DNA of 64,000 bases. Origin: Pirellulales bacterium. GTDB lineage: Bacteria; Planctomycetota; Planctomycetia; Pirellulales; JAEUIK01. Every line of letters begins with the position of its first letter. The stretch's first letter is position 1. The notes under the pieces are model-generated. The model saw only the letters and a program-made list of their open reading frames with translations, was not told the DNA's origin and did not search any database. A program made the position numbers and the translations under genes. The stretch spans positions 1-64,000 of the forward strand of contig JAHBXR010000018.1 of assembly GCA_019636335.1 (NCBI GenBank), in the 5' to 3' direction. Positions 17,555-22,743 of this stretch are shown here, piece after piece.

Positions 17555-17746
17555 TTCGAGCCACCGTTGCCGAGGCCAGCCGGCTCGGCCGTCCGCGGGG
17601 GCGCTCAAGGCACTGGCCAGGAAGTACGGCATCGAGGCGGACGTCTAAAAACTAGGCTCAAAACTGCTCTCGGCCCGCTGGGGCATGGCTGCTACAATTC
17701 GCCGCCCCGTCTACTTGTTTCGAGTCCGGGAAGGGAGTCTGGACCC

Positions 17747-18349
17747 ATGTCTACGCGTACCTTGTTGCTTTCGGTGGCCGGTTGTGTGGCAGTGTGCCTG
17801 GTGGCCGCCGGATGCGATTCTGAAGAACCGATGAGCCGGGCGGCTGCGGTCGCTGGCTCGGCGGTGAAGGCCGCCAGCTACGAGGTGGCGACCACGCAGG
17901 ATGCCGCCGCTCAGCGAGCCGCCCTCCCCGAGGCGTTCGAAGGCGTCGTCGAGTTGTTCGGCCAGAAGCTGAAGGCGCGCCGGCAGGTGAAGCTCGACGC
18001 CGTAGGCAACTACGTCAATCATGGCGAAGCGGTCGCCTGGTACGAAAGTGGCCAGAAGGCCGGCACCATGCAGTTCCGCGAAGGGGTGCCCAACGGACCG
18101 CAGAAGGTCTGGTATCCCAGCGGTCGCAAGAAGCTGCACGGCCAGTGGGAAGATGGCGTCGCCATCGGCCAGTGGACCGAGTGGCACGAGTCGGGCAACA
18201 AGATGTCCGAAGGGGTCTACCTCTCTGGCGAAAAGCACGGCCCCTGGCGCTTTTGGAATCCCGATGGCCGGCTGAACGAACTGGTCGACTACGACCACGG
18301 TCAGGAGTTGCCGGTGGCCGGGCGCCCACGATCGGGCAGCGTGCGTTAG
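17747..18349 (+). CDS. Lipoprotein with MORN/YwqK-like repeats
   Basis: 200 residues. The signal peptide MSTRTLLLSVAGCVAVCLVA ends in a lipobox with Cys at AAGC, so it should be lipid-anchored. Residues 70-190 carry repeats of the toxin-antitoxin YwqK/MORN type: VAWYESGQKAGTMQFREGVP, KVWYPSGRKKLHGQWEDG, TEWHESGNKMSEGVYLSGEK and WRFWNPDGRLNELVDYDHG. Such repeats form beta-hairpin ladders; their role is unknown. A TACAAT box at 17693-17698 may be its -10 element. Confidence 0.85.
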   Translation: MSTRTLLLSVAGCVAVCLVAAGCDSEEPMSRAAAVAGSAVKAASYEVATTQDAAAQRAALPEAFEGVVELFGQKLKARRQVKLDAVGNYVNHGEAVAWYESGQKAGTMQFREGVPNGPQKVWYPSGRKKLHGQWEDGVAIGQWTEWHESGNKMSEGVYLSGEKHGPWRFWNPDGRLNELVDYDHGQELPVAGRPRSGSVR

Positions 18350-18421: not shown

Positions 18422-19036
18422 TCAGGCATGAACGAATGAACGTTCGGGGAAGCCTGGCTGTTTTAGATTCACCAGGCGCACTCGCGGCAAGTCGGCGGCA
18501 GCGACCGCGAAGTGTTCGTCGACGAATCCTGACTTGGCGATTGCCGCGAGCGATTCGGTTGCTTCCGGCAGCGTCGACTTGAGGAGCACCAGCTCGCACG
18601 CGCCCAGCGTCGTCGCGAGGCGCGCGGCGATCGAATCGCTCGTCACGCTCCAGCCGTAGGGGAGCCGTTCGCCCGGTTGCCGCGGCTCCTGCTCGGCGAG
18701 GAAGTGACGCACGTCGACGATGGCGGTCGCGGCGGCGGATGCTTCCCACGTTGCCATTCGCTCGACGAGGGGCAATTCGACTAACGCCACCGCGATGTGA
18801 GCGGTCACGCTCATGGCGTCGATGGCGAGCCAATGCGCGGCCTTTTCGCCAAGCTGCTGCCGGCGATCGATGTCGCGAATCGCATCGACGAGCGCTCCTC
18901 CGCCGACCACGACGAGGTTGCGCGCGGGCGTTTGCTGGGCGAGCCAGGTAGAGAACTGCCGGCGCAACGACGGCTCGTCGAGCAGGCTGCCCCCCAGCTT
19001 GATGACGCGCGTCGAGATGGCCGCCGGCACATTCAC
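18422..19036 (-). CDS. mfnE: Amino acid kinase family protein, MfnE-like ((aminomethyl)furan phosphate kinase)
   Basis: 204 residues of the amino acid kinase fold. Visible motifs are VIKLGGSLLDE at the start, NLVVVGGGALVDAIRDID, HWLAIDAMSVTA and the nucleotide-binding GWSVTSDSIAARLATTLGA. In methanogens and methylotrophs this subfamily phosphorylates aminomethylfuran phosphate in methanofuran synthesis. The start chosen is GTG at 19036, which overlaps the mfnF stop as GTGA and has GAGGA 9 bases upstream; an ATG at 19045 is in frame but has its ribosome site too close. The assignment is strengthened by the mfnF and mfnD neighbours. Confidence 0.82.
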   Translation of the reverse strand: MNVPAAISTRVIKLGGSLLDEPSLRRQFSTWLAQQTPARNLVVVGGGALVDAIRDIDRRQQLGEKAAHWLAIDAMSVTAHIAVALVELPLVERMATWEASAAATAIVDVRHFLAEQEPRQPGERLPYGWSVTSDSIAARLATTLGACELVLLKSTLPEATESLAAIAKSGFVDEHFAVAAADLPRVRLVNLKQPGFPERSFVHA

Positions 19037-20043
19037 AGGTAGCATTCCTCGGCCAGCACCGCCACGGCATGCGCCGTCGCCGCGCGAGACAGCTCGCCCC
19101 CGAGTCGCTCGGCCAGCGAGACCACGGGCACCGTCAGACGCAGCTTTTCGACCATGCGTCGCGCGAGGAATTCTCCCTGCCCCGACACGACGATCGACTG
19201 TGGCGGCACACTTAGCGCGCGCAATACCTGCTGCGCGGCCCGACCCAATCGCGAAAGCTGGGCGCTGGCGATGGCCTCGGCGGCCGCGCGGGCATCTTCG
19301 GCCGAGAACATGGTTCGATCGGCGCAGATCGCGCGTGCCAGGCGATCGTGTGCCGCGGCGCGCGTGGCGGCGCGGCCGTCGGCGGTCTCCGTGTTCGAGG
19401 AGTCTTCGGCGAGGTCCTCCAAGGTGAGATACGCATCGAGTGTCGTGGCAAACAACTCGGCCGCCACCGGACAGGGGGCACCGCGCCAGGGAAGGGTGGC
19501 CGTCGCCGCACAGACGGGGGTGCGCACGACCCCGGTGTAGACCAGTTCGCCCGACAGCATTCGCTCGGGATCGGTGTGCCCCGTGGTGCGTGGCGCGCCG
19601 TCGACGAGCGGAATGAGATCGGTCGTCGTCGAACCGATGTCGATGAGCAGGCCCGGCGACGTGGGCACGTAGCGGCACGCAAACGATGCCAGCGCATGCC
19701 AGTTGGCCGCGGCGACGAGGAGGGGCTCGGCGTTGGCCTGCACGCTTTCGACGAAGTTGCCGTCGTGGCGATAAAAGGCCACTTGCCGCGGACCAGCCGC
19801 CGCCAGGGTCGCGGCCACGATCGAAGCGACCCCCTCGGCCTTGGTCGTGTAGCAGTCGGCCAGCTCGCCCGTCATGGTCACCGCGACACGCTCGGCCGCC
19901 GGGGCCGAGGCGAGAAGCTGTTGCAAGGCGGCGGGCAATTCGTTGGGCGTGCGCCAGAGGGGAAACGGCAGCGAGCGGGCGTAGCCCAGCGTATCGGCTA
20001 CCTTCAGATGAGCGCCGCCAATGTCGAGACCGAGCCAGGCCAT
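19033..20043 (-). CDS. mfnF: Hydantoinase/oxoprolinase-like protein, MfnF-like (C1-carrier biosynthesis)
   Basis: 336 residues of the group annotated as H4MPT-linked C1 transfer pathway protein. It starts with the ASKHA-type phosphate loop MAWLGLDIGGAHLKVAD, then VAVTMTGELADCY, a second loop LLIDIGSTTTDLIPL and a C-terminal IVVSGQGEFLARR. In archaea MfnF joins the aminomethylfuran diphosphate to gamma-glutamyltyramine. It sits 19 bases after mfnD and overlaps mfnE by 4 bases, so the three form one operon. Confidence 0.85.
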   Translation of the reverse strand: MAWLGLDIGGAHLKVADTLGYARSLPFPLWRTPNELPAALQQLLASAPAAERVAVTMTGELADCYTTKAEGVASIVAATLAAAGPRQVAFYRHDGNFVESVQANAEPLLVAAANWHALASFACRYVPTSPGLLIDIGSTTTDLIPLVDGAPRTTGHTDPERMLSGELVYTGVVRTPVCAATATLPWRGAPCPVAAELFATTLDAYLTLEDLAEDSSNTETADGRAATRAAAHDRLARAICADRTMFSAEDARAAAEAIASAQLSRLGRAAQQVLRALSVPPQSIVVSGQGEFLARRMVEKLRLTVPVVSLAERLGGELSRAATAHAVAVLAEECYL

Positions 20044-20062
20044 GCGTTCGTACCGCCAGGTG

Positions 20063-21097
20063 CTACATCATCGTTTGAGGCGTGAAGCGGATCGTTCCGT
20101 CGGCGTCGAATTGTACGGGCGTGTCGGCGAACGACAACGCGGTGCGTCGCCCGGCCGCCAGGTCGAGCCAGGCTTGCGCGAGATTTCCGCGGGCGGCGGC
20201 GCGCAGGCCGATATACGAGGTCGTGAGTCGTGGATTGATTTCGATCACGCGATCGTCGCGACCGTGGGGATCTTGACCCAAGATCAGATCGATCCCCAGG
20301 TATCCGCGCGGCTCGGGCAGGGCCTGCAAGACGCGATGCGCAAGTTCGGTGGCGCGTTCGCGGAGAGATTCCTCGACGATGGTCGCTCCGCCGAGATAGC
20401 GGAACCGCCCGTCGTCGCTCAGCCGCTGCCAGCAGGGAGGAAGAATGATTCTTTCGCGCGGTCCGGCAATCGCGGCGACACTGGCCGCACGTCCCGGACA
20501 GTAGTGTTCCAGGCGTGCGGCAGACGATGGCGCGGGTTGTCGCTCGGCCGCAGGTACATCGGCGATGAAGTAGGTCTCTTGCGAGCCCGCCCCATCGCGA
20601 GGCTTGAGTACCGCGGGATAGGAAAAATCGCGGGGCAGGGGCTCGCCCGGCGCGAGACAGATGCCCGATGGCGTGGCGATGTCCACGTTGGCGAGGAAGC
20701 GGGCCGTACGATCTTTGTCGCTGGCTAACTCGATCAACTCGAGCTCTGGTCCCAAGAGTTGCGACATGCTACTTGCCCAACGACTGCGAGCGGCGAGCAA
20801 CCCGGCCGTCTCGGGCGCCACGACGATGACGGCATCGGCCGCGCTGGCCAACCGCTCGAATTGCCATGCCTCGTCGTCGCGGCCAGAGGCCGTGGTGACG
20901 CGGACGGCGGGGAGCGTGAGGGGCTCATGCCGCGCGTCGCAGAGGACGTCGACCTGCACGTCGCGACAGGCGGCCAGATCGGTGGCGAGGGCCTCGAGCA
21001 TGGCGCGCCCCTCGCGCAACAGCGAGACGGGGAGCGGCTCGCCAGGGGGGAGGGGAAGGCCTCCGGCGGTGACCATTTCGTAGGCGAAAATCCGCAT
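20063..21097 (-). CDS. mfnD: ATP-grasp ligase, MfnD-like (tyramine-glutamate ligase type)
   Basis: 344 residues. The ATP-grasp core runs from about 115 to 310: a lysine motif FSYPAVLKPRDGAGSQETYF, a middle PGRAASVAAIAGPRERIIL and the metal-binding end GYLGIDLIL...RVIEINPRLTTSYIGL. The NPRLTTSYIGL ending is close to MfnD, which ligates glutamate to tyramine for the methanofuran tail. First gene of the mfnD-mfnF-mfnE operon. Other ATP-grasp specificities cannot be excluded from sequence alone, but the neighbours argue for this role. Confidence 0.82.
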   Translation of the reverse strand: MRIFAYEMVTAGGLPLPPGEPLPVSLLREGRAMLEALATDLAACRDVQVDVLCDARHEPLTLPAVRVTTASGRDDEAWQFERLASAADAVIVVAPETAGLLAARSRWASSMSQLLGPELELIELASDKDRTARFLANVDIATPSGICLAPGEPLPRDFSYPAVLKPRDGAGSQETYFIADVPAAERQPAPSSAARLEHYCPGRAASVAAIAGPRERIILPPCWQRLSDDGRFRYLGGATIVEESLRERATELAHRVLQALPEPRGYLGIDLILGQDPHGRDDRVIEINPRLTTSYIGLRAAARGNLAQAWLDLAAGRRTALSFADTPVQFDADGTIRFTPQTMM

Positions 21098-21396: not shown

Positions 21397-22743
21397 ATGA
21401 CGGGTCGACCCGTTGCGATGTTGATCGTACCGATGCTGGTTCTGTGGGCCTCGCTGGCGTGCCCGGCGGCGAGCCATGCCGCCGACGAATTCAACGACGC
21501 CGAGGCGTCGTATCGCGCCGGCGTGAGCAACGCGAAGGAAGGGCGGTATCGCGAGGCGATCTCTTACTTCAATCGCGCGATCGAGATGAATCGCACCTTC
21601 GCGGCGGCCTATACCGAGCGCGGTCTGGCCCGCTCGGCCGTGGGAGATCGGAGCGGCGCGATTGCCGATTTCGGTAAGGTGATCGAGCTGAAGCCCGAGT
21701 CGGACGTGGCCCACGTGAATCGCGGCTGGACCCTCTATCTCGAAGGGCATCTCGAGCGTGCCCTGGTCGATTTCAATCGGGCCGTCGAGATCAACGGCAA
21801 GAATCACGAGGCGCTGTACTGTCGCGGTCTGGTTCACCGTCGGCGGAAGGATCTCGACGCGGCCCTGGCCGACTTTTCGGCCGCGATCGAGGCCAAACCC
21901 GACTATGCGTACGCCTTCAACGAACGTGCCAAGATCGAGCATGCCCAGGGAGATGGCGACGCGGCGCGCGAGGACTGGTTGCAAGCCACCAAGCTCGATC
22001 CCAAGCTCGGCGAGGCGTGGCTGGCCCTGGGTATCCTGCAGCAGGCACAAGGGGACGCGAAAGAGGCGCTGGTCAACTTCGATCGGTCGATCTTGCTGAG
22101 TGGCAAGAGCGCGCTGGCGCACTATCACCGCGGCATGGCCCGGGAGGCGACGAAGGATCTTCAGGGTGCCTTCGACGACTACAACGAGGCGGTGACGCTC
22201 GATCGCCGGTTTGCCCTGGCCTACTATCGACGCGGCCTGCTGCTACGGCAGTCGGGCGAGAACGACCTGGCGATCAACGACTTCACCAAGGTGATCGTGC
22301 TCGAGCCCGACTTCATTGATGCCTTTCGCGCGCGCGGCAAGGCGCGGCGGGCCAAGAACGATCTCGAAGGGGCCATCAGCGATTACAACCGGGCCATCGC
22401 GGCGAATCCCAAGCTGCCCGAAGCGTACGTGAACCGCGGCGAGGCGAAGCTGGCCGGCGGCGACTTCAACGGCGCCATCGACGACTTCACGCGGGCGATT
22501 CAGATCGATGCGAAATTCCCCGATGGCTATGCCAATCGAGGGCTGGCCCTGCTGCGGGCGGGTAAAGATGCCGAGGCGAAGAAGGACTTCGAGATCTTCT
22601 TCGAGCTGATGCCCGAGGCCCAAGAGGCCTTCCAGGAGCAGATCACGCGGATCATGAAGGCCCGGGAAGTAGCGGCCAAGAACGCGGCAGCCGAGGCGGC
22701 GGCTGCGGAACCGGCCGCCACCAGCGGTTCGGCCACCCCATAA
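21397..22743 (+). CDS. Secreted tetratricopeptide repeat protein
   Basis: 448 residues. The signal peptide MLIVPMLVLWASLACPAASH ends near residue 28. About eleven TPR units follow (for example YREAISYFNRAIEMNRTFAA, LERALVDFNRAVEINGKNHE, LEGAISDYNRAIAANPKLPE), with the typical small residues and the closing Pro. The C-terminus is Ala/Glu-rich (EVAAKNAAAEAAAAEPAATS). TPR solenoids are protein-binding scaffolds; no enzyme domain is present and the partner is unknown. It is divergent from the mfn operon. Confidence 0.92.
   Translation: MTGRPVAMLIVPMLVLWASLACPAASHAADEFNDAEASYRAGVSNAKEGRYREAISYFNRAIEMNRTFAAAYTERGLARSAVGDRSGAIADFGKVIELKPESDVAHVNRGWTLYLEGHLERALVDFNRAVEINGKNHEALYCRGLVHRRRKDLDAALADFSAAIEAKPDYAYAFNERAKIEHAQGDGDAAREDWLQATKLDPKLGEAWLALGILQQAQGDAKEALVNFDRSILLSGKSALAHYHRGMAREATKDLQGAFDDYNEAVTLDRRFALAYYRRGLLLRQSGENDLAINDFTKVIVLEPDFIDAFRARGKARRAKNDLEGAISDYNRAIAANPKLPEAYVNRGEAKLAGGDFNGAIDDFTRAIQIDAKFPDGYANRGLALLRAGKDAEAKKDFEIFFELMPEAQEAFQEQITRIMKAREVAAKNAAAEAAAAEPAATSGSATP

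Follow-up and report, generated by a model that had tools for sequence, protein, structure and literature searches.

The three adjacent genes at positions 18422 to 21097 of the window (the whole 64,000-nucleotide stretch of a Pirellulales bacterium contig that was analyzed) very probably constitute an operon, mfnD-mfnF-mfnE, for the late core steps in the biosynthesis of a cofactor of the methanofuran type, the likeliest product being methylofuran. The operon and its flanking genes are as follows:

20063-21097, minus strand: mfnD, ATP-grasp ligase, predicted tyramine (or tyrosine):L-glutamate ligase, 344 aa
20044-20062, minus strand: mfnD-mfnF gap, 19 bases, read from the sequence
19033-20043, minus strand: mfnF, hydantoinase/oxoprolinase fold, predicted furan-to-glutamyl-tyramine (or analogue) coupling enzyme, 336 aa
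19033-19036, minus strand: overlap (GTGA) of the mfnF stop with the mfnE start, read from the sequence
18422-19036, minus strand: mfnE, amino-acid-kinase fold, predicted [5-(aminomethyl)furan-3-yl]methyl phosphate kinase, 204 aa from GTG
21397-22743, divergent: TPR protein, upstream of the operon
17567-18349, plus strand: MORN-repeat protein, downstream of the operon, convergent

The mfnD stop codon (TAG, 20065-20063) is followed by the mfnF start codon (ATG) at 20043, and the mfnF stop codon (TGA, 19035-19033) overlaps the GTG start of mfnE (19036-19034), for which an alternative in-frame ATG at 19045 would yield a product of 207 aa. An earlier note, made from the letters of the sequence, had described three open reading frames in this order, and their coordinates and minus-strand orientation are borne out, as are the short intergenic gap and the overlap that it had reported. 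The motif EINPRLTTSYIGL, which it had pointed out in the ATP-grasp protein, is present in MfnD, and the folds that it had named were matched by the ATP-grasp_3 and preATP-grasp_3 domains (MfnD), Hydantoinase_A (MfnF), and AA_kinase (MfnE). Because the flanking TPR and MORN-repeat proteins have no known link to the pathway, the operon apparently comprises three genes. A small MORN-like lipoprotein encoded elsewhere in the genome (L046:14057-14449) resembles, by eye, the MORN-repeat protein of the window.

At the level of sequence, the assignment of the three genes is not due to chance, since MfnF exceeds the cutoff of TIGR03123, the MfnD_Meth and MfnE models are the top NCBIfam matches of the other two products, and the gene order recurs in other genomes. 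TIGR03123 (“probable H4MPT-linked C1 transfer pathway protein”), by which NCBI models the bacterial MfnF family, is matched at 310 bits against a cutoff of 244, while the archaeal NCBIfam MfnF model is matched at 3e-56 (191 bits), short of its equivalog cutoff of 520 bits. The closest solved structure to MfnF by sequence is an archaeal protein (PDB 3c0b/3cet; E 2e-42, residues 4 to 331), and identity to proteobacterial MfnF proteins ranges from 36 to 42%. MfnE is the weakest of the three by sequence and is held by its top match (the MfnE model, 1.6e-11, 44 bits), its motifs, and the gene order. K16, G18-L21 (GGSL), G48-G50 (GGG), and H71 (numbered from the ATG) are invariant in 23 homologs, in most of which the motif WSVTSDSIAA is also kept, and MfnE shares 29% identity with Orf21 of Azoarcus. 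For MfnD, the top match, MfnD_Meth (9e-16), reaches 58 bits against a curated cutoff of 400 (NF040722), a model which was set on methanogens; the proteobacterial Orf1 proteins likewise score 49 to 68 bits, and Methanosphaera MfnD also falls short. MfnE is similarly below its cutoff (44 versus 300 bits; NF040622), as is Azoarcus Orf21 at 72 bits. Because Orf1 and Orf21 are also far below, these curated cutoffs do not discriminate among bacterial proteins. The evidence for MfnD includes a tree; that for MfnF and MfnE consists of profile matches, pairwise identities, and genomic context.

Bacteria with this pathway encode up to three relevant ATP-grasp ligases, namely, Orf1 (an MfnD paralog), OrfY (MyfA), and Orf5 (MyfB) (PMC8141765), and reference proteins for each were drawn from islands already annotated in Thiodictyon, Azospirillum, and Azoarcus, where gene position and annotation served to identify them. 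The window MfnD is 32 to 38% identical to Orf1 of these three proteobacteria (E 5e-38 to 2e-21), whereas pairwise comparison with the proteobacterial OrfY and Orf5 proteins yielded no significant match (OrfY at E 0.07 or worse). In a tree of 45 ATP-grasp sequences, which included three archaeal MfnD proteins from Methanothermococcus and Methanosphaera, five groups were resolved, each of which a single branch sets off from the other sequences. The planctomycete proteins, Orf1, and archaeal MfnD fell together with a support of 96/88, and OrfY and Orf5 lay outside, their groups each including the matching protein from the Pirellulales genome. The grouping of the window MfnD with Orf1 and archaeal MfnD is clear, its depth being uncertain because the archaeal branches are long. 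The earlier note had made its assignment depend on the position of the proteins in trees, and for the ATP-grasp protein this position, apart from MyfA and MyfB, is the one that it had anticipated. The residues E286, N288, R290, K128, and K165, of which the E-x-N-x-R motif and the lysines represent the Mg/ATP residues of ATP-grasp enzymes, are invariant across 36 sequences from planctomycetes, proteobacteria, and archaea. It is highly improbable that the gene instead encodes MyfA, the ligase for the second glutamate of methylofuran: MyfA has partial similarity to MfnD (PMC8141765) and has the ATP-grasp_3 domain in common with the window protein, but the similarity to Orf1 rather than OrfY, the presence of a separate MyfA homolog on contig C25 of the same genome (G000:C25:70907-72022), and the separation of the two proteins in the tree led to the rejection of this identity.

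In 26 of the 29 relatives for which flanking sequence was fetched, mfnD is followed by a same-strand mfnF, and in 21 of these 26 mfnE was observed next, the flanks reaching only a few hundred bases of mfnE. Scanning of a genome-contig collection with an archaeal MfnF sequence (from the PDB) returned four methanogen loci, and mfnD is directly followed by mfnF in Methanosphaera (L065:8962-11032 and L066:8936-11032); no match was found when the same collection was scanned with the window MfnD. The mfnD-mfnF adjacency is also present in proteobacterial C1 islands. As this adjacency thus spans planctomycetes, proteobacteria, and methanogens, the mfnD-mfnF pair is usable as a marker of the tetrahydromethanopterin (H4MPT) pathway. 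Across 57 genomes of the order, MfnD and Mch are both present in 49 and both absent from 7, with one mismatch, an 81% complete genome with a partial Mch and no MfnD. MfnD therefore occurs in 49 of the 50 genomes with Mch and in none of the 7 without it, and no genome with MfnD but without Mch was found among the 57. The associated Fisher P value of 3e-8 serves as a guide and overstates independence, because the counted genomes are related. These data bear on the suggestion that the three genes are relics or belong to an unrelated ligase-kinase pathway, such as that of a gamma-glutamylated natural product. The separation of the operon from the remaining C1 genes in this genome, together with the weak MfnE score, would be in keeping with such an origin, but the reading frames are open with key residues kept, the co-occurrence with Mch is almost exact, and the proteobacterial counterparts lie inside C1 islands, rendering it very improbable.

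The remainder of the pathway was looked for in the genome one protein family at a time. MfnB was found on contig C9 (200 bits) and Mch on C1 (409 bits), Fae and an Mpt_N (MtdB-type) dehydrogenase are encoded side by side on C25, FhcB-FhcA and FhcD are located on C2, FhcC is located on C4, and a second FhcD is located on C7. The MyfA (OrfY) homolog lies near Fae (E 1.7e-39; OrfY tree group at 100/96), and the MyfB homolog is a RimK-type ligase encoded directly after mch on C1 (Orf5 tree group at 100/99). The earlier note had proposed a search for mfnA, mfnB, mfnC, and fhcABCD and had made its reading depend on the presence of H4MPT-linked C1 genes: MfnB and FhcA, FhcB, FhcC, and FhcD were recovered and Fae, the MtdB-type dehydrogenase, and Mch are present, while a dedicated MfnA was not found. 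Its inference of a methanofuran-type C1 carrier is supported by the MfnD tree and by these other C1 genes. The two FhcD paralogs (L046:9404-10336, plus strand, on C7, and L045:9174-10070, plus strand, on C2) both exceed the TIGR03119 cutoff. The genome also encodes the DUF1559, PSD1/PSCyt2, and DUF1501 families, which are abundant in planctomycetes, and its assignment to this phylum was based on them.

MyfA and MyfB are the glutamate-chain enzymes of bacterial methylofuran, the biosynthetic pathway of which has been published (PMC8141765). Because homologs of both are present, the product is likely to be methylofuran, the polyglutamate-tailed variant of bacteria, which also fits the suggestion of the earlier note that the tail may differ from the archaeal one. 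The MyfB homolog alone is no proof of a polyglutamate tail, since its top NCBIfam match is MptN_Meth. This match, together with the mfnD-mfnF order common to Methanosphaera and the closeness of FhcB to archaeal FwdB, would be compatible with the synthesis of archaeal methanofuran, in which a short glutamate chain carries a terminal tail. This form is nevertheless considered unlikely, as the genome encodes homologs of both MyfA and MyfB, these fall among the proteobacterial enzymes, and MyfB directly follows mch, as it does in proteobacteria.

For methylofuran as the product, we infer the reactions, their sequence, and the tail from characterized relatives, the direct basis in this genome being sequence family, gene order, co-occurrence, and the presence of the other pathway genes. 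MfnD is predicted to perform the ATP-dependent ligation of L-glutamate to tyramine or tyrosine, while MfnE would convert aminomethyl-furanmethanol phosphate to the diphosphate, and MfnF would then couple the two halves, releasing diphosphate. MfnB, encoded on another contig, would supply the furan phosphate together with a putative transaminase (MfnC), for which five candidate homologs, none singled out, have been reported in M. extorquens (PMC8141765). MyfA and MyfB, encoded elsewhere, would subsequently extend the glutamate chain. The resulting cofactor is presumed to be used at the end of the H4MPT pathway that handles the formyl group, following Fae, the MtdB-type dehydrogenase, and Mch, and preceding FhcD and FhcA.

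MfnA is associated with the tyramine form of the core, and family profile searches of the genome revealed no clear MfnA. A decarboxylase on C17 matches TIGR03812 at 200 bits against a cutoff of 299 and was not adopted as MfnA because strong copies are few and patchy, one of them occurring in a genome without Mch. A decarboxylase on C37 was set aside as a glutamate decarboxylase. A PF00282 decarboxylase on C28 (L062:6503-8173, plus strand), which is 63 to 73% identical in 25 relatives, occurs in 26 of the 50 Mch-positive and none of the 7 Mch-negative genomes (P = 0.012) and represents a weak candidate for the missing tyrosine decarboxylase. Since most surveyed strains with an MfnD-type paralog are of the tyramine type (PMC8141765), a tyramine core may be favored over a tyrosine core; in a genome with no clear MfnA, this is a guess. 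The tyramine form of the core yields fragments of m/z 213.09 and 230.12 (PMC8141765).

The closest described arrangement is that of plasmid pAZKH of Azoarcus sp. KH32C, where orf1-orf9-orf21 (MfnD, MfnF, and MfnE) occur in the same order and as overlapping genes, as they do here. In Azoarcus, MfnB comes next on the opposite strand, and the surrounding island also harbors fae, mch, fhc genes, and a gene for a PQQ alcohol dehydrogenase, whereas the planctomycete C1 genes are distributed among several contigs. Both genomes encode MyfA and MyfB separately and possess Fae, Mch, and Fhc genes. The planctomycete proteins are 29 to 36% identical to their Azoarcus counterparts and up to 42% identical to those of other proteobacteria. 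The MfnD, MfnF, and MfnE families are also common to archaeal methanofuran biosynthesis (MfnA to MfnF); the planctomycete differs in having no clear MfnA and in possessing MyfA and MyfB, which suggests a polyglutamate tail. PMC5020050, which cites Chistoserdova et al. (2004), indicates that H4MPT/methanofuran C1 genes have long been known in planctomycetes; the H4MPT-linked pathway is, on this account, already established in the phylum. The operon is, therefore, a further example of a known pathway, a solid but expected result. In the literature searched, neither a description of the three-gene mfnD-mfnF-mfnE operon in planctomycetes nor a measurement of methylofuran from these bacteria was found. 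The present analysis cleanly assigns the methanofuran core genes of a planctomycete order, and the detection of methylofuran in planctomycetes would extend the known range of this cofactor.

A more surprising set of features than the operon itself is that of FhcB, encoded on C2:

L045:5208-6977 (G000:C2), minus strand: FhcB, with an FwdD-like domain N-terminal to FhcB in one open reading frame

This protein is closest to archaeal FwdB (PDB 8rja and 5t5i; E 3e-102 or better) and keeps the N-terminal iron-sulfur cysteine motif. Its Cys265, within the motif SVCHGPS, corresponds in the alignment to Cys118 of 5t5i chain B, which we take to be a tungsten ligand of archaeal FwdB. A cysteine ligand in the B subunit has been described (PMC11656701; PMC10100899), consistent with this role of Cys118. 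The fused domain resembles the pterin-binding domain of FwdD (PF01568, 2.9e-10; FwdD model, 2.6e-9), in contrast to the reported absence of fwdD from planctomycetes (PMC5020050). Bacterial FwdB homologs are known, and FhcB has been described as a scaffold without a metal cofactor (PMC10100899). The FhcB proteins of Azospirillum and Azoarcus were found to have neither the Cys118-aligned cysteine nor the FwdD-like domain, and the absence of the cysteine agrees with this description. The sequence features of FhcB suggest a redox-active formylmethanofuran dehydrogenase in the Pirellulales bacterium, in which oxidation of the formyl group to CO2 may be possible, since the tungsten-ligand-aligned cysteine is kept and the FwdD-like domain is fused. 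We tentatively propose, as a possibility which we hold with less than even confidence, that methylofuran-type biosynthesis (MfnD/F/E with MyfA and MyfB) could here be combined with a redox-competent, archaeal-type formylmethanofuran dehydrogenase. If so, the formyl group would be oxidized to CO2 within one complex with no release of formate, and the enzyme would be intermediate in type between archaeal Fwd and proteobacterial Fhc. The FhcB features thus bear on the final step of formaldehyde/formyl oxidation in planctomycetes.
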